The notes beneath the pieces were generated by a model. The model saw nothing but the letters and a program-made list of their open reading frames with translations. It was not told where the DNA came from and made no database searches. The translations under genes and the position numbers were made by a program. From Companilactobacillus zhachilii (lineage in GTDB: Bacteria > Bacillota > Bacilli > Lactobacillales > Lactobacillaceae), in NCBI RefSeq assembly GCF_003606365.2, contig NZ_CP031933.2, positions 558,001-622,000 of the forward strand: a stretch of 64,000 nucleotides of DNA, given 5' to 3'. Positions 939 to 63,620 of the stretch are shown here, piece by piece (the stretch's first letter is position 1; the number at the start of each line of letters is the position of its first letter).

Positions 939-1106
939 CTAGCCGGAAGGAGCAAGAAATTTAGGTCGCTGTGAAGGTGGTGTTAGGACTTTACTATTAC
1001 ACCACGGGACGACTTTTGAGACCTGCGGTTTATGCAAGGCTCAAAATCGAGACAAAAGACCTTGGCTTTTGTCGGTCCCCACAGCGACCTGCTCCTGGAG
1101 GCGGCA
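939..1106 (+). repeat. Family-A cloverleaf palindrome, copy 1
   Basis: Runs from CTAGCCGG to GGAGGCGGCA. Three arms sit inside a closing stem (GGTCGCTGTG with CACAGCGACC). Arm 3 is GACAAAAG/CTTTTGTC, a different sequence from other copies with pairing kept. The 3' closing strand has lost about 9 nt relative to copy 4. It ends about 50 bp before the RHH gene. Confidence 0.9.
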
Positions 1107-1125
1107 CAGTACAAATAATATCAAT

Positions 1126-1157
1126 GTGATATCACTTTAATATAAACGCGATATAAT
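1126..1157 (+). promoter_or_regulatory. Promoter/operator of the RHH-SPFH operon
   Basis: A perfect palindrome GTGATATCAC (1126-1135) precedes TATAAT (1152-1157). The -10 ends only 6 nt before the ATG at 1164, and no Shine-Dalgarno sequence is present, which suggests a leaderless transcript. The palindrome is a plausible autoregulatory site for the ribbon-helix-helix product. Confidence 0.5.
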
Positions 1158-1163
1158 ATAGAT

Positions 1164-1487
1164 ATGGCAGATAAGATGATTGCATTAAGATTAGATAAAG
1201 ATTTGTACGACCGGATTTCTGAAGATGCCAGTCGTGAAAATCGAAGTGTTAACAATTATATTGTCACTAAATTGAGTGAGACTGTACCCACCAATAATCT
1301 CGAGCAGCGCCAAATAGTAGGATCTGTCGTTCGAGGGGACAAGATCAATATGGCAAACGACTTGATTGAGGTTAAGGGTATTTACTATCGTTATGATTTG
1401 TTGGCAAATGATTCAGTTAACGAAACGGGGAATTATCAAGTGGTCAAAGCCAATGGTAATATCCTAACTATTCAGGAATTAAAGTAG
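1164..1487 (+). CDS. Arc/ParD-type ribbon-helix-helix protein
   Basis: Predicted DNA-binding protein of 107 residues. The N-terminal 45 residues (MIALRLDKDLYDRISEDA then NRSVNNYIVTKL) fit an Arc/MetJ-type ribbon-helix-helix: a short beta strand then two helices. The C-terminal half is not recognised. It is followed 18 nt later by an SPFH-domain gene and probably shares its transcript. RHH proteins commonly autoregulate; the palindrome just upstream suits that, as inference. No toxin-like partner is adjacent, so I do not call it an antitoxin. Start choice rests on the only in-frame ATG, with no visible Shine-Dalgarno. Confidence 0.7.
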   Translation: MADKMIALRLDKDLYDRISEDASRENRSVNNYIVTKLSETVPTNNLEQRQIVGSVVRGDKINMANDLIEVKGIYYRYDLLANDSVNETGNYQVVKANGNILTIQELK

Positions 1488-1505
1488 AAAAGTAGGCGAA
1501 TAAAT

Positions 1506-2327
1506 ATGTTCGGATTGAAAACAGTTCATCAAAATCACGTTGGTTTGGTAGAAACATTGGGGAAGTATAGTCGTGAAGTCAGTGCCGGATTAAATTTTTA
1601 TATCCCTTTCTTTCAAAGAATTCAAATTGTTGATTTGGCAATGATTCCTTTGTCACTTCAAGGTTATTCAGTTATTACCAAAGATAATGCGGAAGTACAA
1701 ACTAACGTGACATTAAACTATCATGTGACGGATGCCCGCAAATTTCAATATGAGAACAGCAACTCGGTTGAGTCAATGATTCAATTAGTTCGTGGTCACT
1801 TGCGTGATATTATCGGTAAATTAGATTTGAATGAAGCTTTAGGTTCAACTTCTAAAATTAATGCTGATTTAGCGACTGCAATCGGGGACTTGACTGATAC
1901 TTATGGTATCAAAGTTGACCGAGTTAATATTGATGAATTGAAGCCATCGGCATCGATTACTGAATCAATGGAGAAACAAATTCGAGCTGACCGTGAGAAA
2001 ACAGCGGCCATTGCTAAGGCTAATGGGGATGCTAGAAGTATTGAAATTGAAACTAAAGCTAAAAATGAGGCAACAGTCTCGACAGCCAAAGCTGAGGCAG
2101 CCGCAACCATTGCTAGAGCCGATGCTAAAGCTTATGAAATTAAGAAATTGAACGATACTTTGGCAGCCGTTGATAATAAGTATTTTACAGCTCAACAAAT
2201 TCAAGCCTTTGCCGCATTAGCTGACTCATCAACCAATACCGTAGTCATGGACAAAGATTCGATTGGTAAGTATGCTGATATTCCTGTTACCGCTAAGGTT
2301 ATGAATCAAATGGTCGATAAAAAGTAA
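1506..2327 (+). CDS. SPFH/Band 7 domain protein (stomatin/prohibitin family)
   Basis: A 273-residue SPFH protein, likely membrane-associated and oligomeric; family members scaffold or quality-control membrane proteins. The Band 7 domain covers about residues 8-175, with the strand-rich start (GLVETLGKYSREVSAGLNF) and VDRVNIDELKPS. It is followed by an Ala/Lys/Glu-rich coiled coil (about 155-215) and a short tail. There is no obvious transmembrane helix, only a weak hydrophobic N-terminal patch. It is co-transcribed with the upstream RHH gene (18-bp gap) and ends at a terminator. The specific client is unknown. Confidence 0.8.
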   Translation: MFGLKTVHQNHVGLVETLGKYSREVSAGLNFYIPFFQRIQIVDLAMIPLSLQGYSVITKDNAEVQTNVTLNYHVTDARKFQYENSNSVESMIQLVRGHLRDIIGKLDLNEALGSTSKINADLATAIGDLTDTYGIKVDRVNIDELKPSASITESMEKQIRADREKTAAIAKANGDARSIEIETKAKNEATVSTAKAEAAATIARADAKAYEIKKLNDTLAAVDNKYFTAQQIQAFAALADSSTNTVVMDKDSIGKYADIPVTAKVMNQMVDKK

Positions 2328-4161: not shown

Positions 4162-5028
4162 ATGAGGATAAGATCGATTGATAACGTCATTTTTATAGGT
4201 ATGGTTTTAATTCTGATCTACCAAAATACTTTATTGTATTTGAGTGTTGTAAGTGGATCATGGATTAATTTTTTAATAATATCATTGGTTTTTATTTTTG
4301 CAATATTTCTTGGTCGGTCAACATATTTGATTTTGAATAGTGTCATCTCGTTTGTTGCAATGTGTGCTGGTGGATTAATGTTACTTTTGCCATACACGCG
4401 GGCAATGTTTTTTTGGTCAGCTATTGCTTTGCTGACAGTTTCGCCGTTGACAACTTATTGTATGTATTTGTTGTATCACCAGTTGTTGAAATTAAGGGCT
4501 TTATCACAGGAATTGGAGCAGTTACAAGAGAACAAGCCAGATTTGGAAGTTGTCACGGGAGCTTTAAATGAGCGAGCCTTGAATATTGCAGTGGGGCGTG
4601 AATTGAAGCTAGTTTACTACCATGAGGACGATTATCGCTTTACCTTGACGATGGTAAAAATTGACTTTTTGGAGAGTGTTATTAATTTCTTAGGTAATCA
4701 AGAATTTAATAACCTTTTAAGAACAACGGCTGAACATTTGATGAGTATTTTATTTACTGTAGATACACTTTATTATATTGGAACTGGCCGCTTTGTGATT
4801 CTGTCACCAATGTTAGGATCTGATAATTCACCTATCATGAAACGAAAAATCAAGAGTCATATTAATGATATTGCTGAGAAATTCGGATTGGCTCGAAATG
4901 CCTTAGTATTGCGGATGGGACAAATTACGTATTCATCACAGGATAAGGTTAAAAATCGTAATGTTGAGGATACCTTAAAACAGTTAGAACGGAGTGCTGA
5001 AACAGATATCGTCAAGGAATACTTGTAA
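4162..5028 (+). CDS. Membrane protein with degenerate GGDEF domain, PssE-like (copy 1)
   Basis: 288 residues. Four hydrophobic segments (about 8-28, 34-52, 56-76, 82-106), a short coiled coil (108-124), then a GGDEF-like fold (about 128-285). The signature is GTGRF (207-211) in place of GGDEF, so diguanylate cyclase activity is not expected. The inhibitory c-di-GMP site RxxD is FTVD (198-201): Asp kept, Arg lost. Listeria PssE, a c-di-GMP receptor beside a GT2 synthase and GH8, has the same setting, so a co-polymerase/receptor role is inferred; the ligand is uncertain. First gene of a four-gene operon whose paralogue starts at 12762. Confidence 0.75.
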   Translation: MRIRSIDNVIFIGMVLILIYQNTLLYLSVVSGSWINFLIISLVFIFAIFLGRSTYLILNSVISFVAMCAGGLMLLLPYTRAMFFWSAIALLTVSPLTTYCMYLLYHQLLKLRALSQELEQLQENKPDLEVVTGALNERALNIAVGRELKLVYYHEDDYRFTLTMVKIDFLESVINFLGNQEFNNLLRTTAEHLMSILFTVDTLYYIGTGRFVILSPMLGSDNSPIMKRKIKSHINDIAEKFGLARNALVLRMGQITYSSQDKVKNRNVEDTLKQLERSAETDIVKEYL

Positions 5029-5040
5029 GAGGTGGTTTAG

Positions 5041-5193
5041 ATGGCATTAGGAAGTTTCGCATGGCTTTTTCCAGTTAGCCTGATTGTGACAATACTTTTC
5101 GGCATTGCAGTTTTAGTATTGTCTGTTTGTTGGTGGATAATTTTTAAAAGAACAATCCGCTGCTTTAATACGGAGGATAAACATCATGATTGA
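5041..5193 (+). CDS. 50-residue single-pass membrane peptide of synthase operon (copy 1)
   Basis: A 50-residue protein with one strong transmembrane segment (about residues 8-35, ending VCWWIIF) and a basic, then acidic tail (KRTIRCFNTED). GAGGTGG precedes the ATG and the last 8 nt overlap the GT2 start, implying translational coupling. The paralogue at 13640 is the same size and keeps the WLFP, SVCWW and TIRCFNTED blocks. This conservation between duplicated operons argues it is a real gene. Role unknown; a small synthase partner is the natural guess. Confidence 0.8.
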   Translation: MALGSFAWLFPVSLIVTILFGIAVLVLSVCWWIIFKRTIRCFNTEDKHHD

Positions 5194-6484
5194 TTGGTTA
5201 TACGTGATTGCAATTATCACGATTTGGCTGTCGATTGTAATGACGATCGTGACGCTTAGTGGTGGTGTTATTTTCATCTTTAAGCATATGTTACATACTG
5301 ATATTGAAAATTTGCCACCGTTGAAACGTTATCCCAAAGTGACACTAGTTGTTCCTGCACATAATGAGGAAATTGTTATACAGGATACTGTTCGGGCAAT
5401 TTTAAATTTGAATTATCCTAAGGATCGTTATGAACTTTTAGTTTATGCTGATAATTGTAACGATAAAACTGCCGAACGTGTTCGCCATTTGCAAGATTCA
5501 CCTGAGTTTGTGAATAATAATTTTCGAGTTATTGAAAGAACGGGTACTGGTGGAAAGGCTGGAGTTTTGAATGATGCCTTAAAAGTCGCTAAGGGTGAAT
5601 ATCTTGGAGTGTATGATGCTGATGCTGCTCCTGAGCAGAATGCTCTTTATTTTTTAGTACAAAAAATTCTTGAAGATCCTGAGCGTTACGCAGCATCTTT
5701 TGGACGAAATAAAACTAGAAATTATCAGCAAAACTTTTTATCACGTTGTATTAACTTAGAAATTGTCAATACACAGCGAATTCAACACACAGGGCTTTGG
5801 CAGTTATTTAAGATTGGTAGAATTCCGGGAACAAACTTTATAATTAATAAAAAAATTGTTCAATCAATTGGTGGATGGAATAATGGGGCACTAACTGAGG
5901 ATACGGCAATCTCGTTTAGTTTGATGCGTTCAGGTAAATTAATTGCTCTTGCGCACCGAGCTGAAGCTTTTCAACAAGAACCAGAGACATTATTTGCATA
6001 TTATAATCAACGTAAACGTTGGGCTCGAGGTAACTACGAAGTTATTTTGGATAACATGAAATATTTATTTGATCGAACTCCATGGCGAATCAAGTTGGAA
6101 GTTGGGTATTACTTATGTACCTTTTTCTGGTTTAATGCCGCAATAATTATCTCCAATGTGATTTTTGTAAGTAATCTGGGATTTAGTTTTATTCATACAT
6201 TTTTGCCACATATCAACACAGTAGTATCATTGGGTGGCCCCTTGTCAATTCTTTTTATGATTAATTGGTTATTGATGTTTTTTTTGTATTTATTACAGAT
6301 GAATATTGCGTTGGCAAGCGACTATGGTCAAGCAACCGTAAAAAACTTTTTCTACACATTAATTTCATATTTTACATACGCTCAATTATTCATTATAGTT
6401 TCGGCAGCTGCTATGTACGATATGGCTAAAGATAAAATTACTGGTCAACGTACTACCAAATGGTATAAGACACAGCGTTTTTAA
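5186..6484 (+). CDS. Processive family 2 glycosyltransferase, exopolysaccharide synthase (copy 1)
   Basis: 432-residue integral membrane synthase of the cellulose/poly-GlcNAc synthase type, polymerising a beta-linked exopolysaccharide and exporting it. One N-terminal transmembrane helix (3-32), a cytosolic GT2 domain with VPAHNEE (56-62), YADNCND (87-93), DAD (144-146), the TED base motif (237-239) and QRKRW, the QxxRW motif of processive enzymes (275-279), then about four C-terminal transmembrane helices (300-415). All catalytic residues are present. No PilZ domain, so c-di-GMP sensing would have to come from a partner. Listeria PssC-like; polymer identity not determinable. Confidence 0.88.
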   Translation: MIDWLYVIAIITIWLSIVMTIVTLSGGVIFIFKHMLHTDIENLPPLKRYPKVTLVVPAHNEEIVIQDTVRAILNLNYPKDRYELLVYADNCNDKTAERVRHLQDSPEFVNNNFRVIERTGTGGKAGVLNDALKVAKGEYLGVYDADAAPEQNALYFLVQKILEDPERYAASFGRNKTRNYQQNFLSRCINLEIVNTQRIQHTGLWQLFKIGRIPGTNFIINKKIVQSIGGWNNGALTEDTAISFSLMRSGKLIALAHRAEAFQQEPETLFAYYNQRKRWARGNYEVILDNMKYLFDRTPWRIKLEVGYYLCTFFWFNAAIIISNVIFVSNLGFSFIHTFLPHINTVVSLGGPLSILFMINWLLMFFLYLLQMNIALASDYGQATVKNFFYTLISYFTYAQLFIIVSAAAMYDMAKDKITGQRTTKWYKTQRF

Positions 6485-6499
6485 TGGGAGATAGGTAAA

Positions 6500-7663
6500 A
6501 TGAGACATCACAAATATCAATGGTTGATCAGTGGCTTAATAATTTTGGTTTCATTTACGATTGGCATTGCCGTTTATAATACATATTCACCTATGAGTAT
6601 GTCAGGACTAAGTTCGACAATTATCAAGGATCGTTATAGAGAATGGAAAAGAGCTTATTTAAAGGGAAATAGCAATCAAAAATTCGTCAAAGTTAATAAT
6701 GGTAAAAATAATCAAACATTATCTGAAGCTCAAGGTTATGGAATGATAATTAGTGTAATGGCGGCTAGACAGGGCTTTGGTAGCAAAAAGACATTTGATC
6801 AATTAACTGATTATTATCTTAAACATCAAATTAGTAAACGTAATCCATTGATGGAATGGCGTCAGCAACAAAAGGGCAATTATATGGTAAGTATTAAATC
6901 TGAGAAGACTAGTGCTACGGATGGAGATTTAGATATAGCTTATGCACTAATTTTGGCAGATGAAAAATGGGGTAGTAAAGGTGATGTGAAGTATAACCAA
7001 CTTGCTAATAACTTACTGGCAGCAATTCAAAAACGAGAAATTAATCAAAAAACATTTTTACCTAAAGTTGGTGATTGGGCCACTGCTTCTAAGACGGAGA
7101 ATATTGTTCGTCCATCAGACTTAATAACAGCCTATTTCCGAAAATTCGCTAGTTATACCCGAGACGTTCGCTGGACTAAGGTAGCAGAAAATAGTCAAAC
7201 AGTATTAAAGCAACTGAGTTCACAACATAGTACTGGTTTGATAGCCGATTTTGTAACTGTTAGTGGTGAAAAATTACAGACAACTGATGTCAAATCCAAA
7301 CAAGTGGCATCCATACATGATAATCAATATGGATTTAATGCTTGTAGAATTCCCTGGCGAGTCGCATATGATTATCAACTCAAGCACAGTCAAGTCAGTA
7401 AAAAGATTGTGGAAAAGATGTTGACTTTCTTTGTTGATCAAAAGGATATTATGGCCGTTTATACGTTAAATGGAAAAGCGGTTGAAAATTATTCTAATAA
7501 GGCTTTTTCCACACCAGTGGCTTATGCATCGCATGTAGTATTGAACACGACTTTAAAAAATCGTTATACGAAAGACTTAACTTCTAAAATATCAGGAAAT
7601 GATTATTATCCAGAAACCATTCAGATGGCTACATTATTGGCCAGTGGTGACATTGGTAAGTAA
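6500..7663 (+). CDS. Family 8 glycoside hydrolase (copy 1)
   Basis: 387 residues: N-terminal membrane anchor or uncleaved signal (about 9-29), then a GH8 catalytic domain outside the membrane. The catalytic acid is in LSEAQGYGM (E76) and the family signature is SATDGDLDIAYAL (138-150; D141, D143). GH8 enzymes cut beta-1,4 glucan, chitosan or related chains; in synthase operons (BcsZ, PssZ) they trim or edit the nascent polymer. Last gene of the operon, 15 bp after the GT2 stop, and followed by a terminator. The paralogue is at 15101. Confidence 0.88.
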   Translation: MRHHKYQWLISGLIILVSFTIGIAVYNTYSPMSMSGLSSTIIKDRYREWKRAYLKGNSNQKFVKVNNGKNNQTLSEAQGYGMIISVMAARQGFGSKKTFDQLTDYYLKHQISKRNPLMEWRQQQKGNYMVSIKSEKTSATDGDLDIAYALILADEKWGSKGDVKYNQLANNLLAAIQKREINQKTFLPKVGDWATASKTENIVRPSDLITAYFRKFASYTRDVRWTKVAENSQTVLKQLSSQHSTGLIADFVTVSGEKLQTTDVKSKQVASIHDNQYGFNACRIPWRVAYDYQLKHSQVSKKIVEKMLTFFVDQKDIMAVYTLNGKAVENYSNKAFSTPVAYASHVVLNTTLKNRYTKDLTSKISGNDYYPETIQMATLLASGDIGK

Positions 7664-12188: not shown

Positions 12189-12370
12189 TCCGCCTCTGGG
12201 TGCGATAATTTTAGGCTGCTGTGGGGACCGGTTCGAGCCAAAATACGGTCTCGAACCTCGATTTTGAACTTCGCAAAGTACGCGAATTTCAAAACTCGTC
12301 CCGTGGTGTAAGAGCTAAAGCTCTAACACCACCTTCACTGCTGCCCAAAATTATCGCACCCAGAGGCTAG
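12189..12370 (-). repeat. Family-A cloverleaf palindrome, copy 3
   Basis: Minus orientation. The closing stem pairs GGTGCGATAATTTTAGGC with GCCCAAAATTATCGCACC, unlike any other copy in sequence. Arm 3 is GGTTCGAG/CTCGAACC. First half of an inverted pair with copy 4 (184-bp spacer). Confidence 0.92.
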
Positions 12371-12554
12371 GGTATTGTAGGTTGACGTTGTTTATATATA
12401 GTCGGGATTGATTTTCAATATTTAACTAAAGGTTGAAAATTTCAAAATAAATTTTAAATCATGATGATCTACTTTTTCAGAGTATGAAGATAGTAATTAC
12501 CATATATTCCTATTCCAAGTTAAATCTCAGTCTGTATAAAAAGCAACGAATAAA
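12371..12554 (+). other. AT-rich spacer of the copy 3/4 pair
   Basis: No ORF. A segment around 12415-12460 (TTTAACTAAAGGTTGAAAAT) resembles the sequence before copy 1 (TTTAACTGAAGATTGAAATG), so part of the spacer is itself repeated. It ends AACGAATAAACTAG, shared with copy 19. Confidence 0.5.
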
Positions 12555-12737
12555 CTAGCCGGAAGGAGCAAGAAAATTAGGACGCTGTGAAGGTGGCGCT
12601 ATGGCTTCAGCCATTACACCACGGGACGATCTTTGAAACTCGCGGTTTTTGCGAGGTTCAAAGTCGAGATTCGAGACCGCTCTTCGGCTCGAATCGGTCC
12701 CCACAGCGACCTAATTTCCTTACTCCTGGAGGCGGCA
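12555..12737 (+). repeat. Family-A cloverleaf palindrome, copy 4
   Basis: Plus orientation, CTAGCCGG to GGAGGCGGCA. Arm 1 TGGCGCTATGGCT/AGCCATTACACCA, arm 2 GAAACTCGC/GCGAGGTTC, arm 3 GATTCGAG/CTCGAATC. Ends 24 bp before the second synthase operon, so it probably lies in that operon's leader. Confidence 0.92.
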
Positions 12738-13628: not shown

Positions 13629-13639
13629 GAGGTAGTCAA

Positions 13640-48442: not shown

Positions 48443-48581
48443 CTAGCATCTGATAGCACGGGACTTTGTCAGCAGTGAAAGTTGAGTTAGTGCTTTAGCA
48501 CTTACTCAAAATCGAGTCTTGAGACCTTGGCTCAAGACGGTCCCACAGCAGACAAAAGTCCCGTGCTATCAGATGCGGCAT
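48443..48581 (+). repeat. Family-A palindrome, copy 10 (two-arm variant)
   Basis: 139 bp. The closing stem of about 25 bp is nearly perfect (CATCTGATAGCACGGGACTT with AAGTCCCGTGCTATCAGATG) and shares no sequence with other copies. Arms: TGAGTTAGTGC/GCACTTACTCA and GTCTTGAG/CTCAAGAC. The middle arm is missing, joined by AAAATCGAG. Confidence 0.9.
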
Positions 48582-51307: not shown

Positions 51308-51409
51308 ATGAAAAAACATCCAATTCTCGTATTAACGGGTGTATCTGTTTTAGCAGCTGCGTGCACTAAAATGATTAGAAGTCACAACGAAAAGAAGTTT
51401 TTGAACTAA
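51308..51409 (+). CDS. 33-residue small membrane or lipoprotein-like peptide
   Basis: MKKHPILVLTGVSVLAAACT, then KMIRSHNEKKFLN: short basic start, hydrophobic core and a Cys in a VLAAAC lipobox-like context. GAGGTGAAG is at good spacing, supporting translation. Too short for family assignment. It stands alone between a family-A pair and the next small frame. Confidence 0.55.
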   Translation: MKKHPILVLTGVSVLAAACTKMIRSHNEKKFLN

Positions 51410-51489
51410 TTCACTACAAACAAAAATACAATAAGTAAAACATTCACATTCAAAATAAAACAAATATCAATTGATTTGAGGTAAATAAT

Positions 51490-51588
51490 ATGAAAGTAAA
51501 TATGCTAAAAGGCTTGCGTAAGCAAGCCTTTTTTGTCGTGTTTCTTTTGCTTTTTTGGTATTTATCTCATATCATTTTAATAAGCTAA
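51490..51588 (+). CDS. 32-residue hydrophobic peptide frame overlapping a hairpin
   Basis: MKVNMLKGLRKQAFFVVFLL then LFWYLSHIILIS: basic N-terminus and one transmembrane stretch, after TTGAGGT at 9-10 nt. Codons 6-15 coincide with the terminator-like hairpin GGCTTGC/GCAAGCC, so either the frame is chance sequence read past a terminator, or translation and termination compete. Low confidence. Confidence 0.3.
   Translation: MKVNMLKGLRKQAFFVVFLLLFWYLSHIILIS
51507..51535 (+). terminator. Terminator-like hairpin
   Basis: AAAAGGCTTGC-GTAA-GCAAGCCTTTTTT; ends the 33-residue peptide transcript. Confidence 0.85.
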
Positions 51589-51671
51589 CACGTAGACTTT
51601 TTTTATAATTAAATCTGAGCCGTTAAAGTTAAAGCTAGTGAAACGGCAGTGGACAAGGAGATCTTGAGCAA

Positions 51672-54203
51672 ATGTCAAAACGTAATGTCCAGTATTATTT
51701 TGGTGCGTTTTTTCTTAATTTATTAATTATTTCTATTGTTTTTGCTTATTCTGGATTGGTCCCGTTTGGTAGTAATAATTTTTTGAGTAGTGATTTAGGT
51801 ACACAGTACTTAACTTTTTTGACGGAACTGAGACGACAATTGGTTTCGGGAAACTTTCATTTATATTTATTTAGTCAATCGTTGGGAGATAACTTTTTCC
51901 CAGTCATTAGTTATTATTTGTTGTCACCATTTAATTTATTGCTAGTACTATTAAGTCCCAAAGGGGTACCGGCTGCTGCAAATATAATTATTATGTTGAA
52001 AATTTCCACAATGGGTCTTTCGATGGCATATTTCTTGAAGTCATATTTTCAAAAAGACGGTATGGCTAATTATATGTTTACGATTGCCTACAGTTTTTGT
52101 GGATTTGTGGCGTCGTATTTTTATGATCTGATGTGGCTTGATGCGCTGATTATGTTGCCGTTAGTAGCAGTCGGCGTGATGCATGTAATTAAAGAGCAAA
52201 AATATATTCTGTATTATTTTTCTATTCTTTTAGCAATTATTTTTAATTATTATTTAGGTTATATGCTCTGTATTTTTTCACTTTGCTTCTTTATTTATCT
52301 GGGATTGGAAAATAATCTCTTTCAAACTAAGGGTAAATGGCGTGTGATTCGGGATTATTTAGTAACGTCGATTTTAGCCGGCTTCAGTTCAGCAGTTGTT
52401 CTGGTGCCAACTTTAGTCGGAATGTTGAAAACTGCTAAAACCTCTTTTGATGTGCTGAACTATTTACCCTCGGCTCGTTTTGGCTTAGAGGCTCTGACGG
52501 AATTAGGCATCGGCGGCAATACTTTTGACCAACGTTTGGAGCATGGTCCGTCAGTTTTCATGACTTCAACAATTTTGATTTTAGTCTTGGCGTTCTTTGT
52601 CAGTGATCGTATTTCAAATAGGGATAAGTGGTATTCAACCTTACTAATTGGCACCTTATTGATCAGTATGTTTGTTACAACGTTTAATACCGTTTGGCAT
52701 ATGTTTCAAAACCCAGCTGGATTTCCTTTTCGAAATAGTTTTATTTTTTCTTTTGCCTGTATTTTTATTGCTTACAAGGCCTTTGATAATGGCGTTTTTC
52801 ATGATACGGGGACGATTGTTGAAAGTACTTGTTTAGCAGGGATTTTGGTTTGTATTGGTTATTCGACAGAGTGGTTGTTGCCAAAAATCATTGAAGAGTT
52901 AGGCTTTGGAAAACCTGATAATCGCTATGATGGACGTTATTTTTGGTTGAGTATTACTTGTATTATCATCTCGGGCTTGATTTTATTAGCGTTCAATCGG
53001 AATCAAAAGTTTTTGAAATTAGCCATTTTGATGATTGTTTTTGAAGTGATAGCTAATTTTAATTCGGTTATTAGTACGGCAAGGTTTGGCGATCAGTTAG
53101 TTTATCGGGAAGAGTTTGCTAAAGAAGACAATATTTTAAAAAATGTTAAAAATCGTAGTCATCTAGGTCATCGAATTATTGTTTCAAAGTCGGGATTGAA
53201 TAAAGCTTTTCCGGAAAAATATAATAACTATAATGATCCGATTTTGTTCAATATTAATGGTGTCAGTCTTTATAGCTCAACTTTGAATCAAGATACTCTG
53301 ACCATGATGCATAATTTTGGTTATTATAGTCTCAATGTTCGACGAATTAGTTACTTTGGGGGAACCAACTTAACTAATGCCTTACTGGGAGTCTATTATC
53401 GTGTTCGGCAGTGGGATAATCACTATTACGTTGAAGAAAACTACAATGCGCCAACGCTCGGATTTTTAGTTGACTCTGACGTGTATGGATTTAAAATGTA
53501 TTCCAAACGGGCTTTAGATAATCAAGACCGCCTCTGGCAAGCGTTGAATGGTAATAGTTATGAGTATTTGAAAAATGCTTTAGTTAATAGCATGCAACAA
53601 ATAAATGTCAAAAATAAAACGATGTATACGTATCAATTGACAACTAGAGCCAGTGGTCCAATGTATTTTTACGTTTCACCAATGAACTATGATAAAGCTA
53701 AAATTTATGTTAATGGTAAACGAGTCAAGACTAGCTCGATGAATGTTTATAGTGCAGCCACTTTGCGTTTAGGGCATTTTAGGAATAATAAAAAAGTTGA
53801 AGTGAAAATTTTGACTGATAAGTCATTAGATTTAAATCCTGAATATTTTCAATCATTGGATCAAAAAGCTTTTCTTGAATCATTACAACAATTTAGAAAA
53901 AATTCATTAAAAATAACTTCCAATTTGAATCACGATACGGTGAGAGGAACCATCAAGGTGCCCGTAGATTCACCATTATTGTTAAGCATTCCGTACGATG
54001 ATGGCTGGAGCGCCAAAGTTGATGGCAAGAAAGTTAAATTACATAAAGTAGTAGATAATTTAATGGCAATCAATTTAGATGCAGGCAAACATAAAGTAGT
54101 TTTGGATTATCAAGTTCCAGGCTTAAAATTAGGTTGGATAGTTTCAGTAGTTTCAATGTGTTTGTTTGCGGGATTTGAGTATTTTAGACGGAAAAGAGGT
54201 TGA
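51672..54203 (+). CDS. YfhO-family membrane glycosyltransferase
   Basis: 843 residues: about 12-13 transmembrane helices in the first 440 residues plus one at the C-terminus (about 815-835), with a large extracellular beta-rich region between (YDDGWSAKVDGKKV near 775). YfhO proteins are GT-C-type transferases that decorate lipoteichoic or wall teichoic acid using undecaprenyl-phosphate sugars. Acidic SSDLGTQYL in the first loop is the family catalytic-type motif. AAGGAGATC precedes the ATG. Family-A copy 13 begins 9 bp after the stop with no other terminator. Confidence 0.88.
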   Translation: MSKRNVQYYFGAFFLNLLIISIVFAYSGLVPFGSNNFLSSDLGTQYLTFLTELRRQLVSGNFHLYLFSQSLGDNFFPVISYYLLSPFNLLLVLLSPKGVPAAANIIIMLKISTMGLSMAYFLKSYFQKDGMANYMFTIAYSFCGFVASYFYDLMWLDALIMLPLVAVGVMHVIKEQKYILYYFSILLAIIFNYYLGYMLCIFSLCFFIYLGLENNLFQTKGKWRVIRDYLVTSILAGFSSAVVLVPTLVGMLKTAKTSFDVLNYLPSARFGLEALTELGIGGNTFDQRLEHGPSVFMTSTILILVLAFFVSDRISNRDKWYSTLLIGTLLISMFVTTFNTVWHMFQNPAGFPFRNSFIFSFACIFIAYKAFDNGVFHDTGTIVESTCLAGILVCIGYSTEWLLPKIIEELGFGKPDNRYDGRYFWLSITCIIISGLILLAFNRNQKFLKLAILMIVFEVIANFNSVISTARFGDQLVYREEFAKEDNILKNVKNRSHLGHRIIVSKSGLNKAFPEKYNNYNDPILFNINGVSLYSSTLNQDTLTMMHNFGYYSLNVRRISYFGGTNLTNALLGVYYRVRQWDNHYYVEENYNAPTLGFLVDSDVYGFKMYSKRALDNQDRLWQALNGNSYEYLKNALVNSMQQINVKNKTMYTYQLTTRASGPMYFYVSPMNYDKAKIYVNGKRVKTSSMNVYSAATLRLGHFRNNKKVEVKILTDKSLDLNPEYFQSLDQKAFLESLQQFRKNSLKITSNLNHDTVRGTIKVPVDSPLLLSIPYDDGWSAKVDGKKVKLHKVVDNLMAINLDAGKHKVVLDYQVPGLKLGWIVSVVSMCLFAGFEYFRRKRG

Positions 54204-54211
54204 TTGTTAGT

Positions 54212-54390
54212 TTCCGCTTCCAGGAGTAAGAAATTTTGGTCGCTATGGGGACCGTCTGGAGCCAAGGTCTCCAGACTCGATTTTGAGCCTTGCTGAGAAC
54301 CGCAAGTCTCAAAAGTCGTCCCGTGGCGTAAGCGCTGAAGTGCCAACGCCACCTTCACAGCGACCAAAATTTCTTACTCCTTCCGGCTAG
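54212..54390 (-). repeat. Family-A cloverleaf palindrome, copy 13
   Basis: Minus orientation. Closing stem AGGAGTAAGAAATTTTGGTCGC with GCGACCAAAATTTCTTACTCCT; arm 2 TTTTGAGCCTTGC/GCAAGTCTCAAAA; arm 3 GTCTGGAG/CTCCAGAC. It lies in the 3' UTR of yfhO and may protect or end its mRNA. Pairs with copy 14 across 135 bp. Confidence 0.93.
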
Positions 54391-54525
54391 GGTGTGTTTT
54401 CAAATTAGTCTGATAAGAATCTATTCTGATACGGATAAATATTTTAAGTGCGTGGTTGTTCCAGAATTCTATCAAAACGATAAAAAATATTTGAGGCCTC
54501 AAGCCATTTTTGAGTTAATAAAGAA

Positions 54526-54712
54526 CTAGTCGGAAGATTCGGACAGTGGTTACTGGCAGTGAAAGTGGTGTTAGGACGACCGCTTTTGTCGTTCTTACAG
54601 CACCGGGCGCATTTAAGACTTGCCGAACTTGCAAGGCTTAAATCGAGGTTCGAGACCGTGGCTCGGACCGTTCCGCACCGCCAGTGACCACTGTCCGAAT
54701 CTGGAGACGGCG
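54526..54712 (+). repeat. Family-A cloverleaf palindrome, copy 14 (A2 subtype)
   Basis: Plus orientation, ends GGAGACGGCG. Closing stem AGATTCGGACAGTGGT with ACCACTGTCCGAATCT; arm 1 TTAGGACGAC/GTCGTTCTTA; arm 2 ATTTAAGACTTGC/GCAAGGCTTAAAT; arm 3 GGTTCGAG/CTCGGACC. Longest copy (187 bp). Confidence 0.93.
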
Positions 54713-54831
54713 TATCCTAGTTTATTTGTGATTGAAAATTAAAATACAAAACATAAATCTTAATTAAAATGAACCAAAAGACAAGATTTTAGAAATGATT
54801 ATGATATTAGTTTCCAAAACTAACTAAATGT

Positions 54832-54859
54832 TATAATATTTTGGTATGAAACGTTTACA
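54832..54859 (+). promoter_or_regulatory. glpK promoter with cre-like site
   Basis: TATAAT (54832-54837), then TGAAACGTTTACA (54847-54859) downstream of the -10. Symmetric like cre but one base shorter than consensus. Catabolite control of glycerol kinase by CcpA would be expected. Confidence 0.5.
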
Positions 54860-54869
54860 TTAATAATGA

Positions 54870-56385
<1,516 letters not shown>

Positions 56386-56387
<2 letters not shown>

Positions 56388-56409
56388 AAGGCGATTGTCG
56401 CCTTTTTTG
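56386..56409 (+). terminator. Terminator between the two glpK genes
   Basis: AAAAGGCGA-TTG-TCGCCTTTTTT; only 17 bp before the next ATG, so the paralogue depends on readthrough or an internal promoter. Confidence 0.8.
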
Positions 56410-56426
56410 GTGTGTGGGAGTTAATT

Positions 56427-57923
56427 ATGGAAAAAGATTATATTTTAGCAATTGATGAAGGAACCACGACGGCTCGAGCAATTATCTTTGATCACAGTGG
56501 TAAGAAGATAACTACAGCTAGGCATCCAATTAAACAAATTCTACCTAATCCAGGCTGGGTCGAGCACGATCCAAATGAATTGTGGAATGCTGTACAAACG
56601 ACAATTGCTACTGCTTTGATTGATTCCGGGATTAAGCCGCAACAAATCAAAGCCATTGGAATTGCCAACCAGCGAGAAACAACGATTGTTTGGGATAAAA
56701 AAACTGGTTTGCCAATCTATAACGCAATTGTTTGGCAAAGTCGTCAAACCTCTAATTTGGCTAATGATTTAATCAAAAATGGTTATAAAGAAGAAATTCA
56801 TCAAAAAACTGGCTTGATTATTAGTCCATATTTTTCCGCTACCAAGATTCGGTGGATCTTAAATCACGTTGAAGGTGCCCAAGAACGAGCTGAAAAAGGC
56901 GAATTATTGTTTGGAACAGTTAATACGTGGTTACTTTGGAAGTTAACTGATGGTGAAGCATTTGCGACCGATTGTGCTAATGCTAGTCGAACGATGCTTT
57001 ACAATATCAATACTTTGCAATGGGATGATGATTTATTAAAACTATTTAATATCCCTAAGGCGATGTTGCCAGAAGTTAAATCAAATTCAGAACATTTTGG
57101 TGTAACAAAGAATTATCAATTTTATGGTTCAGAAATTCCAATTACTGGGATGACCGGTTCACAACAAGCTTCTTTGTTCGGACAGATGGCTTTTGAAAAA
57201 GGTATGGTCAAAAATACTTATGGTACCGGTGCCTTTGCTGTTATGAATACAGGTGATAAACCAGCCTTGTCAGATAATAATTTGTTGACGACAATTGCAT
57301 ATGACCTTAATGGTCAAGTTAAGTACGCCTTAGAAGGTAGTGTTTTCATCGCTGGAGCTGCTTTACAGTGGTTGCGAGACGACATGCGCTTAGTTAACAG
57401 TACCCCAGAAACATCAGCAGCTGCTTTAGAATCAGCCAGTCAAAATGAAGTCTACGTTGTACCAGCCTTTGCCGGATTAGGAGCACCTTATTGGGATAAC
57501 AAAGCACACGGAACAATCTTTGGCATTACCCGAGGAACCACAGATAAAGATTTGATCAAAGCAACCCTACAAGCAATTGCTTATCAAACTAAAGATATTA
57601 TTGAAACAATGAGTTCAGACGCTAAAATGCCAATTGAAGTTTTAAAAGTCGATGGAGCAGCATCAGCCAATGATTACTTAATGCAATTTCAAACCGATAT
57701 TTTGGGAATTGAATTGCAAAGATCATCTGAATTAGAGACAACTTCATTAGGAGTAGCATTCTTAGCCGGTTTAGGAGTAGGATTCTGGAAAGATTTAGAT
57801 GATATAAAAAAGAATTATCAAACAGGAAAACTATACCAACCAAAAATGGAAGATTCCGTTCGTCAAGATCTATATGCTGGTTGGAAAGATGCCGTTGAAG
57901 CTACAATGGCGTTTAAGCATTAA
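56427..57923 (+). CDS. Glycerol kinase paralogue lacking the catalytic aspartate
   Basis: 498 residues, collinear with the preceding glpK. The catalytic base position is Ser245 ([11 protein letters not shown] instead of [10 protein letters not shown]), the HPr-phosphorylated His is Gln231 (NYQFYG), and VDGGAANN reads VDGAASAN. R and E of NQRETT, the Trp and the PYFS Tyr are kept. It is unlikely to phosphorylate glycerol normally; a regulatory pseudokinase, a changed substrate, or a hetero-oligomer partner are options. The frame is fully open over 498 codons, so it is maintained. The ATG at 56427 follows GGGAG. Family-A copy 15 starts 8 bp after the stop. Confidence 0.88.
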
Positions 57924-57930
57924 AAAGGGG

Positions 57931-58108
57931 TTCCGCCTCCAGGAACAAGAAATTTTGGTCGCTATGGGGACCGGTTGGAGCCAAGGTCTCCAACCTCGAT
58001 TTTGAACCTCGCAGAGTACGCGAGTTTCAAAAGTCGTCCCGTGGTGTAATGGCTGAAGCCATAACGCCACCTGCACAGCGACCAAAATTTCTTGTTCCTT
58101 CCGGCTAT
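57931..58108 (-). repeat. Family-A cloverleaf palindrome, copy 15
   Basis: Minus orientation. Closing stem AGGAACAAGAAATTTTGGTCGC with GCGACCAAAATTTCTTGTTCCT; arm 1 TGGTGTAATGGCT/AGCCATAACGCCA; arm 3 GGTTGGAG/CTCCAACC. Immediate 3' UTR of the second glpK. Pairs with copy 16 across 173 bp. Confidence 0.93.
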
Positions 58109-58281
58109 TGTATTCGTTGTATTTTAGTGTTAACTGCATATATATCACTGGTTAGTTGGTTCAGAGTCTTAGAAGATTAAATAATTTTGATTTTTAAAGT
58201 TACGTTGATTCCTTCATTCATTTTGACAATCATCATTAAAATTAATTGTCAGTTATCAAAACAATAACCAACATAGTTAAA

Positions 58282-58458
58282 CTATCCGGAAGGTTCAAGC
58301 AATGAATCCCGCAGTGACGGTACTGTTAGGACTTTAGTCCTTACAGTACAGGACGTGTTTTGAAATTCGCGTTTTTTGCGAAGTTCAAAACCGAGCCTGG
58401 AGACCTTGGCTCCAGGCGGTCCCATTGCGGGATTCGTTGCTTGAACCTGGAGGCGGCC
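58282..58458 (+). repeat. Family-A cloverleaf palindrome, copy 16
   Basis: Plus orientation, inner end CTAT, outer end GGAGGCGGCC. Closing stem GGTTCAAGCAATGAATCCCGC with GCGGGATTCGTTGCTTGAACC; arm 1 GTACTGTTAGGACT/AGTCCTTACAGTAC; arm 3 GCCTGGAG/CTCCAGGC. Confidence 0.93.
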
Positions 58459-58480
58459 CTCCATAAATTATAAAAACTTA

Positions 58481-58521
58481 AAAAAATAAGAGCCTATATT
58501 AAATGGCTCTTATTTTTTTTT
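58481..58521 (+). terminator. Orphan terminator after repeat copy 16
   Basis: AAAATAAGAGCC pairs with GGCTCTTATTTT, then T-rich. No gene precedes it on the plus strand within 550 bp, only the family-A pair, which hints that copy 16 is transcribed. Confidence 0.85.
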
Positions 58522-58561
58522 GTTGATATACAAGGGATAGCGGTGTTTTATTAAAAAGGTT

Positions 58562-58590
58562 TTGACATAAAGAATTTGAAAGTTTAATAT
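58562..58590 (+). promoter_or_regulatory. Promoter of the POT transporter gene
   Basis: TTGACA (58562-58567), 17-bp spacer, TAATAT (58585-58590). Confidence 0.8.
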
Positions 58591-58627
58591 TAATACATTC
58601 ATTGTGTAATGTGAGGAGAATTTTTTA

Positions 58628-60102
58628 ATGGACGAGAAAAAGATCGAGGTTTCTTCGGACAACCGACAGGCTTGCGTACATTATTTCTAACTGAGTTCTG
58701 GGAAAGATTCAGTTATTATGGTATGCGTGCCATTTTGCTGTTCTACATGTACTATGCGGTAACAAAGGGCGGTCTAGGGATGGACCGTACTACAGCCGCT
58801 TCAATTATGTCAATTTATGGTTCACTAGTTTACATGTCAAGTGTGCTAGGTGGATTTATCAGTGATAGATTATTGGGAGCCAGAAGAACTGTTTTCTGGG
58901 GTGGTGTGTTGATCATGCTTGGTCATATCGTACTATCATTCCCAATTGGTGAAACAGGATTATTCCTATCTATTGGACTTATTGTTATTGGTACTGGACT
59001 CTTGAAGCCAAACGTATCCGAAATGGTTGGTGGATTGTATTCAGAAGGAGACCCAAGACGTGATTCTGGTTTCAGTATTTACGTTATGGGTATCAACTTA
59101 GGTTCCCTATTTGCACCACAAGCTGTTAACAGTATGAGTAATGCCTTTAATTTCCACGCTGGTTTCTCATTAGCTGCTATCGGTATGTTTATCGGATTGA
59201 TTGTTTATTGGTGGGATGGACGTAAGTACTTGCCAGAATCAAGTTTACATGCCCCAGATCCTATCACAGACGAAGAACGTGGACGCTTCTATAAACGAGT
59301 TGCCATCGTTGTTGTAGTTATTGCGGTCATTGTAGCTGCGTTGATTTTTGCACATGCCTTTACAATTGATAACGTTATTACAATTATCAGTATCTTAGGT
59401 ATTGGTTTACCTGTTGGTTACTTCATTATGATGCTAACAAGTAAGAAAGTTACTAAAATTGAAAGATCACGTGTTTTCGCTTATATTCCATTGTTCATCG
59501 CTGCAATGATTTTCTGGGCAATTGAAGAACAAGGTTCTGTTGTCTTGGCATTGTTTGCTGCTGAACAAACACAACTAAACTTTGCTGGATTACATTTATC
59601 AGCACCACAATTCCAAATGCTTAACCCATTCTTTATCATTATCTATACACCATTCTTTGCTTGGCTATGGATCAAATTGGGCAAGCGTCAACCATCATCA
59701 CCATCTAAGTTTTGGCTGGGATTAGTTGCTACAGCTATTTCATACTTTGTCTTGATTATTCCATTGATGGGTCTAAGTGGTAGCGGAAAAGTTAGTCCAC
59801 TTTGGCTAGTTCTAAGTTGGGGTATTATCGAAATTGGTGAAATGTTGATTTCTCCAGTTGGATTGTCAGCCACAACTAAATTGGCTCCAAAGGCTTTCTC
59901 TGGTCAAATGATGAGTATGTGGTTCCTAGCTGATTCAGCTGGTCAAGCTGCTAATGCTCAAATTGTTAAACTATTCGTACCTGGTGATCCTAAAAATGAA
60001 ATGATGTTCTTTGGTATTACAGGTATCGTTACATTAGTTGCAGCTGTCTTATTGATTCTATGTGTTCCTTGGATCAAGAAGATGATGAAGGGTGTTAACT
60101 AA
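58628..60102 (+). pseudogene. POT-family di/tripeptide transporter with early frameshift
   Basis: Proton-coupled oligopeptide transporter, about 490 residues, 12-14 helices, DtpT-like. From codon 9 onward the frame reads FFGQPTGLRTLFLTEFWERF, then SYYGMRAILLFYMYY, GGFISDRLLGARRTVFWGG and IGTGLLKPNVSEMVGGLY, all POT signatures. The ATG at 58628 (after GAGGAGA) reads MDEKKIEVSS and stops at 58690. With six instead of five A after GACGAG, it reads MDEKKDRGFFGQPTG, the expected N-terminus. So a one-base deletion in an A tract, phase variation, or a sequencing error. Internal starts (58672 GTG/TTG-type) would lose part of the first helix region. Confidence 0.85.
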
Positions 60103-60117
60103 AATATAATTTAAACC

Positions 60118-60147
60118 AAGCCGTAGCTTTGATGCTGCGGCTTTTTT
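60118..60147 (+). terminator. Terminator after POT transporter
   Basis: AAGCCGTAGC pairs with GCTGCGGCTT, then T5. Confidence 0.85.
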
Positions 60148-60153
60148 GATGGA

Positions 60154-60338
60154 TTCCGCCTCCAGGAGCAAGAAATTTTTGGTCGCTATGGGGACCGATT
60201 CGAGCCGAAAGGCGGTCTCGAATCTCGATTTTGAGCCTTACTGAAAACCGTAAGTCTCAAAAGTCGTCCCGTGGTGTAATGGCTAAAGCCATAACGCCAC
60301 CTGCACAGCGACCAAAATTTCTTGCTCCTTCCGGCTGG
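60154..60338 (-). repeat. Family-A cloverleaf palindrome, copy 17
   Basis: Minus orientation. Closing stem AGGAGCAAGAAATTTTTGGTC with GACCAAAATTTCTTGCTCCT; arm 1 TGGTGTAATGGCT/AGCCATAACGCCA; arm 3 GATTCGAG/CTCGAATC; arm 2 tip carries ACTGAAAACCGT. Pairs with copy 18 (188 bp). Confidence 0.93.
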
Positions 60339-60526
60339 TTTATTCGTTGATTCCCAGTAGTTAATATATTGTAATAGTGTTTAATTTTATGAGGTTAGTT
60401 TATAGAAAGGTGTTGTTTTAAATTGGTCAATTTTGTCTTATATGAATAGTGTGCTTGACGTTAGTTGAGTCTTATTGGTCAATTCTAATAATTTATTGGA
60501 TGGCAATTATATTCGTAAAACAGACA

Positions 60527-60713
60527 TTAGTCGGAAGAATCAAGAAATGGTTGCTGGCTGTGAAAGTGGTGTTAGTACGGTGATTTTCCGTACTTACAGC
60601 ACCGGGCGTGTTTGGAGACTCGCGGTTTTTGCGAGGCTTCAAACCGAGGCATGAGACCTTGACTCATGCCGGTCCGCATAGCCAGCAACCATTTCTTGAT
60701 TCTGGAGACGGCA
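60527..60713 (+). repeat. Family-A cloverleaf palindrome, copy 18 (A2 subtype)
   Basis: Plus orientation, ends GGAGACGGCA. Closing stem AATCAAGAAATGGTTGCTGG with CCAGCAACCATTTCTTGATT, perfect; arm 1 TTAGTACGG/CCGTACTTA; arm 2 GAGACTCGC/GCGAGGCTTC; arm 3 GCATGAG/CTCATGC. Confidence 0.93.
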
Positions 60714-60752
60714 TCTTTAGCAACACTTTTTCAAAAAAATATAAAAAATCAC

Positions 60753-60781
60753 TTGAAATGATTATAGATTTTCGGTAATAT
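60753..60781 (+). promoter_or_regulatory. Promoter of tRNA-Tyr/Gln operon
   Basis: TTGAAA (60753-60758), 17-bp spacer, TAATAT (60776-60781). Confidence 0.75.
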
Positions 60782-60815
60782 TATTTAAGTCGAATGAGAC
60801 ATGTGTTAAACACAT

Positions 60816-61811: not shown

Positions 61812-61951
61812 TTTTTAAATTTGAAGGATTTAAAAGCATTTTGTTATTGTTAGGATGTTGTGAAAATAATAGATATTTAATTTCTTTCAAATTCGTTTTA
61901 AGGTAAGATATAACCTGATATGTTTTTTAAATTTTTAACTGGGAGTCACTT

Positions 61952-63346
61952 ATGCAAAGCTTTATAAAAAAGTACAGTATCTTCTTGATGCTATATATTG
62001 TTTTTCAACCTGTATTAGATGCTGTTACCGGACTGATGGCTCAAGCACATATTAATATTACCTTCGGGGTTTTGATACGCATGGCTGTGATGGCTGTGAC
62101 TGTATTTTATATTCTGATGTTCTTGATACTTAATAGGGATAATAAACATGGGTTTCGAGTCATCGCGTATTTCGTAGTTTTAGGAATAGTTTCGGTGATT
62201 AGTTTAATTGTAAATTACAAACAAAAAGAATTATTTATACCATCGCTAGAATTAACAACTTTGGCAAAAAGTGTGTACTATCCAATCATGTTGCTAGGAT
62301 ACTTTTATGCCTTTGAAGAATTGGCTGAGGATCGAATCATCAACCGCTTCTTCCCAAAAGTAATTTTTTATGCTGTGAATATCATCAGTATTATCATGAT
62401 TATCGCTCATTTTACTAACACAAGTTTCAGTTCATATGCTTACTATAAGCTAGGTGAAAGTGGCTGGTTCTACGCTGCTAATGAGTTGAGTGCGATTGTT
62501 TCAATTGCCTTTCCAATCATGGTTTGGTACGCATTGAAAAAAATTAGCAATTGGTCAAGAATTTATTATTGGCTGACAATTATTTTAGCAATCTATGCCG
62601 CCTTGTTGATTGGTACAAAAGGATCACTATTAGCAATTCTCTTTGGTACATGTATGGCAATTTTAGCTGCTGTGATCCACTTCTTCCAAGACAGTAGCAG
62701 ACGTAAATTTAACGCCGGAATTGTAGTGCTATTAGGTTTGACCTTAGGTGGAGTTTTTGCAGCATATCCAGCTATGGCCGTATCAAGAACAGCCGAATTG
62801 CATAGTGATATGATCAAGTACAAGAAGAAACAAGCTAAGACGAAAAAAGGTATCACTAAAGACCAAAAGAAATACGTTGAAACTAATAAAACCGTTTCAT
62901 ACTTGTTGAGTGGTCGAACAGTGTACTTTGAAAATGCCGCTAATAACTTTAAGAAAGCAACCCCAGCTCAAAAAATCTTTGGTATGGGATATGCTACAAA
63001 GTTTAAGAGTGAGAAGAAAGCTAAATTGGTTGAAATGGATTATATTGATATCTTCTTCCAATTTGGATTCCTCGGCACAATCATTTACTTAGCACCATTA
63101 CTATATTGCTTGATTTATCTAATCGGAACTTTCCTTAGAAAATTCAAGGATATGTGGTCGTTTAAATGGGCAATGCTCGTTGCCAGTGTAGCGTTAGGAT
63201 TTGGAATGGCTTTAATGACAGGACACGTTATTGAAGCACCATCAGTAAGTATTTACTTCGTTTCAATCTTGAGTTATGCGATGTTGAACGCAAGAATTTT
63301 CCTTAGAACAAACCAAAATCCATATACAATTGATGTGGAAGATTAA
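61952..63346 (+). CDS. O-antigen ligase/polymerase-like (Wzy_C) membrane protein
   Basis: 464 residues with about 11 transmembrane helices and a large external loop (about 272-345, rich in Lys: KYKKKQAKTKKGITKDQKK). The loop region and flanking LLSGRTVYFENAANNF motif are typical of Wzy/WaaL/TuaE-type proteins that polymerise or ligate lipid-linked sugars. GGGAG precedes the ATG. It may be the polymerase missing from the eps cassette at 8.1 kb, or belong with the teichoic-acid-type TagA homologue just downstream on the other strand. Confidence 0.8.
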   Translation: MQSFIKKYSIFLMLYIVFQPVLDAVTGLMAQAHINITFGVLIRMAVMAVTVFYILMFLILNRDNKHGFRVIAYFVVLGIVSVISLIVNYKQKELFIPSLELTTLAKSVYYPIMLLGYFYAFEELAEDRIINRFFPKVIFYAVNIISIIMIIAHFTNTSFSSYAYYKLGESGWFYAANELSAIVSIAFPIMVWYALKKISNWSRIYYWLTIILAIYAALLIGTKGSLLAILFGTCMAILAAVIHFFQDSSRRKFNAGIVVLLGLTLGGVFAAYPAMAVSRTAELHSDMIKYKKKQAKTKKGITKDQKKYVETNKTVSYLLSGRTVYFENAANNFKKATPAQKIFGMGYATKFKSEKKAKLVEMDYIDIFFQFGFLGTIIYLAPLLYCLIYLIGTFLRKFKDMWSFKWAMLVASVALGFGMALMTGHVIEAPSVSIYFVSILSYAMLNARIFLRTNQNPYTIDVED

Positions 63347-63354
63347 AAGTGTAC

Positions 63355-63395
63355 TAAAAAAACTAGTAATCCGTTGGGATTGCTAGTTTTTTTGT
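63355..63395 (+). terminator. Terminator after polymerase-like gene
   Basis: AAAAAACTAGTAATCC pairs with GGGATTGCTAGTTTTTT; the same AATCC/GGATT core as family B. Confidence 0.9.
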
Positions 63396-63442
63396 CGTTA
63401 TAACGAAAGAGTGTTCAAAATTTATTCAAAACAACGAATAAA

Positions 63443-63620
63443 CTAGCCGGAAGGAGCAATGAAATCAGGACGCTGTGAAGGTGGCGTTAGCACTTTAGTG
63501 CTTACACCACGGGACGAGTTTTGAAATTCGCGTACTTTGCGAAGTTCAAAATCGAGCTTGGAGACCTTGGCTCCAAGCGGTCCCCACAGCGACCTAATTT
63601 TCTGGCTCCTGTAGGCGGCA
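63443..63620 (+). repeat. Family-A cloverleaf palindrome, copy 19
   Basis: Plus orientation; preceded by AACGAATAAA as in copy 4. Arm 1 TTAGCACTTTAGTGCTTA; arm 2 TTTTGAAATTCGC/GCGAAGTTCAAAA; arm 3 GCTTGGAG/CTCCAAGC. The closing stem is imperfect at GAAATCAG/TAATTTTC. No minus partner in the window; it lies between convergent genes. Confidence 0.93.

Follow-up and report, generated by a model that had tools for sequence, protein, structure and literature searches.

Inverted pairs of cloverleaf-like intergenic repeats in Companilactobacillus zhachilii, a candidate family of REPIN-like mobile DNA

Background

BOX, RUP, NEMIS/Correia and ERIC repeats are structured, intergenic and likely non-autonomous mobile repeats made of single stems or modular hairpins, and integron attC sites, each one hairpin without inverted doublets, are recognised as a folded single strand in which the sequence is free and the structure is kept. 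Many repetitive extragenic palindromes (REPs) are marked by the tetranucleotide GTAG. In this study we describe a family of cloverleaf-like intergenic elements found in a 64,000-nucleotide stretch of the Companilactobacillus zhachilii genome (contig NZ_CP031933.2, positions 558,001 to 622,000; this whole stretch is hereafter called the window). On balance, we read these elements as non-autonomous mobile DNA resembling REPINs (inverted REP doublets), with cloverleaf ends, paired or alone, that would be recognised by a recombinase supplied in trans.

REPINs (PMC3116915) and bacterial interspersed mosaic elements (BIMEs) consist of inverted REP doublets, and their proposed mover is RAYT, a Y1 HUH transposase. 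The window family resembles them in being composed of extragenic palindromes in many copies, in its over-represented inverted doublets with a spacer, in the lack of any coding capacity seen, and in the tetranucleotide beside the palindrome, here CTAG. It differs in size and complexity (137–186 nt with three arms, two in one copy, whereas a REP is a single hairpin of 20–40 nt), in its freely varying stems, and in its Firmicute host, in whose genome no Y1 match was found. The absence of a consistent target-site duplication separates it from classical miniature inverted-repeat transposable elements (MITEs), and the general descriptions given above set it apart from BOX, RUP, NEMIS and ERIC. The attC sites are similar to the recognition proposed here, as a folded strand whose structure is kept.

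The nearest published lead, a possible relative by description, is Efa-1 of Enterococcus faecalis, which two sources present as a 163-bp intergenic repeat with 65 copies and a multi-hairpin fold (PMC2267715, PMC1590033). Size, intergenic type, multi-hairpin fold and a Lactobacillales host are alike, whereas Efa-1 is reported as an adjacent pair of stem-loops and the window family forms a closed cloverleaf. The element reportedly also goes by the name EFAR and is said to have been treated by Venditti et al. 2007.

Elements and fold

A previous reading of the window from its letters alone (the sequence-only reading) listed 19 structured intergenic elements with pervasive covariation. A covariance model was trained on 18 of these copies, with the arm-2-deleted copy at 48443-48579 excluded from training, and it found 19 elements again in the window (137–186 bp, E up to 1; opposite-strand matches of the same elements were not counted). 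They occupy 3,364 of the 64,000 bases, at a window G+C content of 36.8%. The junction motif GCTGTGAAGGTGG has 15 window matches with ≤ 2 mismatches against 0.88 expected, in agreement with the conserved junction sequence already noted. Seven inverted pairs account for 14 of the 19 elements and five are single; this inverted pairing was absent from the sequence-only reading and is new here. The elements and two of the pair spacers are as follows (covariance model scores in bits):

939..1105, + strand, single element, 148.1 bits
3035..3211, - strand, single element, 179.8 bits
12189..12370, - strand, left half of pair 12189-12736, 191 bits
12371..12554, spacer of this pair, AT-rich, 184 bp, resembling spacers elsewhere (spacer comparison)
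12555..12736, + strand, right half of pair 12189-12736, 177.8 bits
21941..22118, - strand, single element, 169 bits
41629..41804, - strand, single element, 187.9 bits
43858..44036, - strand, left half of pair 43858-44342, 175 bits
44161..44342, + strand, right half of pair 43858-44342, 184.2 bits
48075..48256, - strand, left half of pair 48075-48579, 185.1 bits; the related genome G005 bears elements at the same site
48443..48579, + strand, right half of pair 48075-48579, arm 2 deleted, 97.7 bits
50662..50843, - strand, left half of pair 50662-51199, 180.6 bits
51024..51199, + strand, right half of pair 50662-51199, 160.7 bits
54213..54390, - strand, left half of pair 54213-54711, 178.7 bits
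54391..54525, spacer of this pair, similar in inverted orientation to a spacer in stretch L158 of the same genome (80% identity over 133 bp)
54526..54711, + strand, right half of pair 54213-54711, 142.4 bits
57932..58108, - strand, left half of pair 57932-58457, 195 bits; the pair is absent at this site in relatives
58282..58457, + strand, right half of pair 57932-58457, 181.4 bits
60155..60338, - strand, left half of pair 60155-60712, 176.3 bits
60527..60712, + strand, right half of pair 60155-60712, 164.9 bits
63443..63619, + strand, single element and example of the anatomy, 183.9 bits

The fold consists of a closing stem of ~25 bp, arm 1, and a short 5-bp stem enclosing arms 2 and 3. The closing stem and three arms were thus described correctly before, whereas the four-way junction was not: the geometry is that of two nested three-way junctions, because arms 2 and 3 sit within the short covarying stem GGGAC/GTCCC. 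In the example 63443-63619, which folds much better than its shuffles (z −7.9 as DNA, −6.7 as RNA), the parts of the RNA fold are:

63446-63477 with 63585-63616, + strand, closing stem
63481..63510, + strand, arm 1
63511-63515 with 63580-63584, + strand, inner stem GGGAC/GTCCC
63518..63552, + strand, arm 2
63556..63578, + strand, arm 3, core GAGACCTTGGCTC

The arm-3 core is present in several distant loci. Among the 18 window copies, 96.6% of the cells are paired, and two-sided changes that keep the pairing occur in 41 of 66 pairs, against 25.6 in shuffles and 10–15 in slid controls. All six helices contain pairs altered on both sides, and the covariation score (0.483 vs. 0.170 shuffled and ≤ 0.085 in slid controls) bears out the pervasive covariation. 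The inner stem shows two-sided changes in one of its five pairs in the window and in all five in a set from other genera and families.

A larger set of 104 elements combined the 19 of the window with 85 kept from 156 matches in 15 other stretches (364 kb in total); opposite-strand matches and fragments, one of 78.5 bits at a stretch end, were dropped. In this set 5,259 of 5,533 cells are Watson-Crick (95%), 115 are G-T (2%), 56 A-C (1%) and 103 other (2%). At least two Watson-Crick types were found in 40 of 54 pairs and all four in ten, among them an arm-3 pair (columns 135:155) that is Watson-Crick in 104/104 elements. On the strand running from CTAG to CGGC, G-T exceeds A-C (27 vs. 10 pairs, 7 ties, p 0.008), a count somewhat biased by the fold having been computed on that strand. 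The consensus ends are CTAG-YCGGA on the left and TGGAG-RCGGC on the right (102 elements with enough flank). Conservation is higher in the unpaired junctions (mean 0.82–0.94) than in the closing stem (0.73–0.75). Copies differ pairwise by a median of 25% (99th percentile 43%), and at an orthologous site the stems have altered in both strands, which speaks against recent copying from one source. These data support a structure conserved far more than the sequence. The step from there to selection on structure, also made earlier, has one competitor, since arm-to-arm correction in hairpins would leave the same pattern.

No element of the window matched Rfam at the gathering threshold, where only a lysine riboswitch and four tRNAs were found; a permissive search of 41600-60800 gave chance-level matches on the elements (e.g., rli117, 20.3 bits vs. 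a threshold of 87). The earlier statement that no named element has this form therefore stands for Rfam, with Efa-1/EFAR as a possible relative compared by description. Nothing was found in plasmids and phages with one host element (blastn), in plasmids with one distant relative, or in viral contigs with the exact arm-3 pattern, each being a single query that could miss distant copies. A literature search of titles and the starts of abstracts returned nothing naming the fold or such repeats in Companilactobacillus.

Copy number, inverted doublets and genomic placement

The host genome (G000) is a single contig of 2,714,973 bases. Out of 1,835 first-look candidates 150 were scored and all 150 matched (E ≤ 1e−42), so 150 is a lower bound. 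The 16-base core occurs 228 times with ≤ 2 mismatches and is not found in the reversed control. By scaling elements per core match we estimate ~400–540 copies: 395 from the 15 stretches plus the window (104 elements, 60 core matches) and ~540 from the window alone (19 elements, 8 core matches). The 15 stretches were picked for holding matches, and their densities do not represent a random sample. The family is a genome-scale feature, as had been supposed, with at least 150 copies in this genome and further matches both in the genus at large and in other families of the Lactobacillales.

The 364 kb contain 88 neighbouring pairs, of which 28 are < 500 bp apart, and in 27 of these a minus-strand element is followed by a plus-strand one. 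The resulting doublets have the layout GCCG..CTAG – spacer – CTAG..CGGC, with spacers of 93–368 bp and composites of 454–720 bp. Thirteen of the 27 spacers match another spacer (E up to 1e−3), for instance L149 13847 and L162 11015 (83% over 153 bp), or L158 17778 and that of the window pair at 54213 (80% over 133 bp, inverted). Such recurrence implies that at least some composites were copied as a unit.

For 70 of 77 units there were called genes on both sides (open reading frames, ORFs, mostly made of an element were ignored). Only one of the 70 overlaps an ORF called by a simple caller, and 15 lie between divergent genes.

Some elements, in stretches L149, L155, L156, L157, L158, L159, L160, L161 and L162, extend outward with ATATTTAACTAGCACCRCGCG or close variants, an extension that is possibly the true outer end.

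Comparison of sites with relatives

Glycerol kinase encoded in the window shares 95% identity with the Companilactobacillus mindensis enzyme and 91–93% with those of C. futsaii, C. halodurans and C. pullicola, which puts the host in Companilactobacillus. At the site 57932-58457 the aligned flanks are 535–565 bp apart in the window and ≤ 45 bp apart in 10 of 10 relatives (genomes G005, G029, G009, G015 and G001, C. mindensis, C. futsaii, C. halodurans, C. pullicola and C. kedongensis); the junctions were viewed in seven of them. C. metriopterae and C. nantensis, whose flanks could not be aligned here, are outside the ten. The site 60155-60712 is occupied by related elements that differ in sequence, as doublets or singly, in G005, G029, G009, C. 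mindensis, C. kedongensis and C. pullicola. Two doublets of stretch L149 have one mate missing in G005; gain or loss of an element by itself is thus possible.

In the sister species G005, the counterpart of 48443-48579 occupies the same site, with the outer stem shared and the beginning of the spacer similar; it retains arm 2, which is lost from the window copy. Based on the host-copy structure, seven double and three single changes between the two are paired and three are broken. Over five sites shared with G005, double changes kept pairing 36 times and broke it five times with the host-copy structure (single changes 18 and 13), and 31 and four times with the G005-copy structure (single changes 22 and 17); at two of the five (L149 13235 and 17390) the copy may have been replaced and would then not be an orthologue.

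Incomplete copies were also observed. The G005 counterpart (C48, L215) of L149 12502 has lost the segment after arm 3 through the CTAG end, and half elements exist. The G009 orthologue (L185) of 63443-63619 is a 34-base remnant, TTAGTCGGA..TCTGGATACGGCA, with both ends kept and the cloverleaf interior gone, and looks as if it had been excised or deleted. A second large structured repeat, with GTAGCTCGTTTTAGAGCCAC in its arms and ends AGAGAGCG../..CGCTCTCT, is located in the window at 38140-38480, and similar sequence is found in G005, G029 and G009 at the site of 63443-63619.

Spread across the order

In a search of relatives the model matched 32 of 60 genomes (29 of 36 in the genus, 3 of 24 outside), and in a search of the order 30 of 345, both counts including the host; the latter matches come from several genera of Lactobacillaceae and, at lower strength, from four further families. 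The hosts outside the genus that bear a name are Levilactobacillus koreensis, L. yonginensis, L. tongjiangensis, an uncultured Lactobacillus, Lactiplantibacillus nangangensis and Lacticaseibacillus kribbianus. The 42 matches in 30 loci of other genera and families (23 of L190-L214, with the partial matches L198 and L211 excluded, and 7 others) covary in 61 of 66 pairs with 92.3% of cells paired, in an alignment fitted to the model. Eight of nine neighbours < 600 bp apart in these loci are arranged minus then plus, the ninth including a weak fragment, and the doublet layout recurs in other Lactobacillaceae genera and one other family.

Other Companilactobacillus species carry a sister subfamily (CTAGTCCGGA..GGACGGC) with the closing stem and arms 1 and 2 and no arm 3, in which two-sided changes affect 46 of 56 pairs (16 sequences). 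Genome G031 has at least 40 copies of it (40 of 107 candidates scored; 85–98% identical to the copy used as query); ten weak inverted matches are located near strong ones.

Nature of the elements

The sequence-only reading had left the level of action between RNA and extruded DNA. Inverted pairs in about half of the elements and the many recurring spacers favour mobile DNA over free-standing RNA. In such a system the cloverleaf fold would be the mark read by a recombinase supplied in trans, and the doublet would be the moving unit, or one of them, with single elements being remnants or moving alone. The recognised form may be the single strand from CTAG to CGGC, for which the excess of G-T over A-C in that orientation, ~2 to 1, is a hint of a folded strand. 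With recognition resting on nothing but the shape and the junction or arm-3 core (GAGACCTTGGCTC, GGTCCC), the stems would be free to drift. The enzyme itself would have been lost, or would belong to a class other than Y1, ISL3, reverse transcriptase and IS110.

Several observations weigh against this REPIN-like reading. The Y1 (RAYT) model PF01797 had no match in the host genome, whereas it matched in 16 of the 37 genomes searched; models of reverse transcriptase (PF00078) and IS110 (PF02371) had none in the host either, and other recombinase families were not searched. The host holds one truncated ISL3 gene, with no element within 1.5 kb. Around 27 doublets or 50 singles there is no consistent target duplication, only scattered exact repeats (7–9 bp near doublets, 8–10 bp near singles) at no consistent distance. 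An autonomous copy was not present in two host minus-to-plus intervals of 0.5–1.5 kb, which encode ribosomal protein S4 and a helix-turn-helix gene (three longer intervals were not examined), and no transposase was seen by eye among the ORFs of two long intervals in G031. Half of the set (50 of 104 elements) is single, mates of a pair differ by 16–40%, as much as other copies do, and 7 of the 36 genus genomes, with the host counted, have no match. The empty site at 57932-58457 lacks exact boundaries, and the absence could partly be deletion. In addition, 15 of 20 singles between co-directional genes lie in sense (p 0.04), a weak orientation bias not predicted for a purely DNA-level element.

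This bias fits a rival view, like that put forward for the ERIC, NEMIS and Efa repeats, in which the elements act as cotranscribed RNA that controls how stable neighbouring transcripts are and how they are processed or terminated, their spread being secondary. The very stable RNA fold (z −6.7) and the prevalence of G-T over A-C on one strand (115 vs. 56 cells, 27 vs. 10 pairs) agree with such a role, and unpublished data cited in PMC1590033 indicate that Efa and Ype repeats may stabilise mRNA. We nevertheless consider it unlikely: 15 of 70 placed units are flanked by divergent genes, one mate of an inverted doublet is antisense in any transcript, the composite at 57932-58457 is absent from its site in all ten relatives with alignable flanks, and ~2% G-T cells are low by the usual yardstick for functional RNA. 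Quite improbable, in our view, is maintenance of the perfect stems by a mutational process without selection, in which template switching or mismatch repair in extruded hairpins would copy one arm onto the other, letting any palindrome drift and yet remain a palindrome. The scarcity of intermediates (95% Watson-Crick against 2% G-T, 1% A-C and 2% other) is what it would produce, as is the ratio at the five shared sites of 36 paired double changes to 31 single and five unpaired double ones. However, other genera and families have kept this topology, and the unpaired junctions, which cannot be templated, are more conserved (0.82–0.94) than the closing stem (0.73–0.75). Such correction accounts for the covariation and leaves copies, doublets and spacers unexplained, so it would have to act together with mobility.

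An origin as MITE-like derivatives of ISL3-family insertion sequences, with the cloverleaf lying subterminally in the insertion sequence, is very improbable. ISL3 was the only DDE family searched for a parent insertion sequence with the same ends, and as a mobiliser it seemed decisive in genome G134 and failed across the genus. G134 has nine copies of a 203-bp relative, eight sharing ~1.78 kb and the ninth 0.83 kb; the relative sits inside this repeated unit downstream of an ISL3 transposase gene (PF01610, E 9e−53, read in L222), and one copy is flanked on both sides by the 8-bp repeat CTTATTTA. Some G031 copies also have a GGTTCTTTCTTAAG-like outer flank. Yet in the relatives search, host included, a model match within ~1.5 kb was found at 2 of 30 ISL3 loci, no 8-bp duplication occurs at a consistent place around the 27 host doublets, the G031 flank is common to only part of the copies, and the G134 element may be a passenger in the insertion sequence.

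Returning to the REPIN-like reading, a broader version of it is tentative and, on our assessment, rather doubtful: a Lactobacillales-wide class of mobile DNA with two ~180-nt double-junction cloverleaf ends that are read by shape and not by sequence, moved by a recombinase that is neither Y1 HUH, reverse transcriptase nor IS110. Should the REPIN-like reading be true, the structured miniature mobile elements known from bacteria would gain a family whose ends are far more complex than REPs and whose host lacks any recognisable RAYT. The hundreds of natural structure variants per genome could then serve to find the enzyme and help to separate selection on the fold from arm-to-arm correction.

Other features of the window

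The segments 4162-7663 and 12762-16264 contain ORFs that match exactly in length and in order (288, 432 and 387 aa), which are GGDEF-like, glycosyltransferase 2 and glycosyl hydrolase 8/BcsZ-like, respectively, and together look like a duplicated exopolysaccharide operon. The lysine riboswitch is located at 36056-36252, upstream of an amino acid permease.

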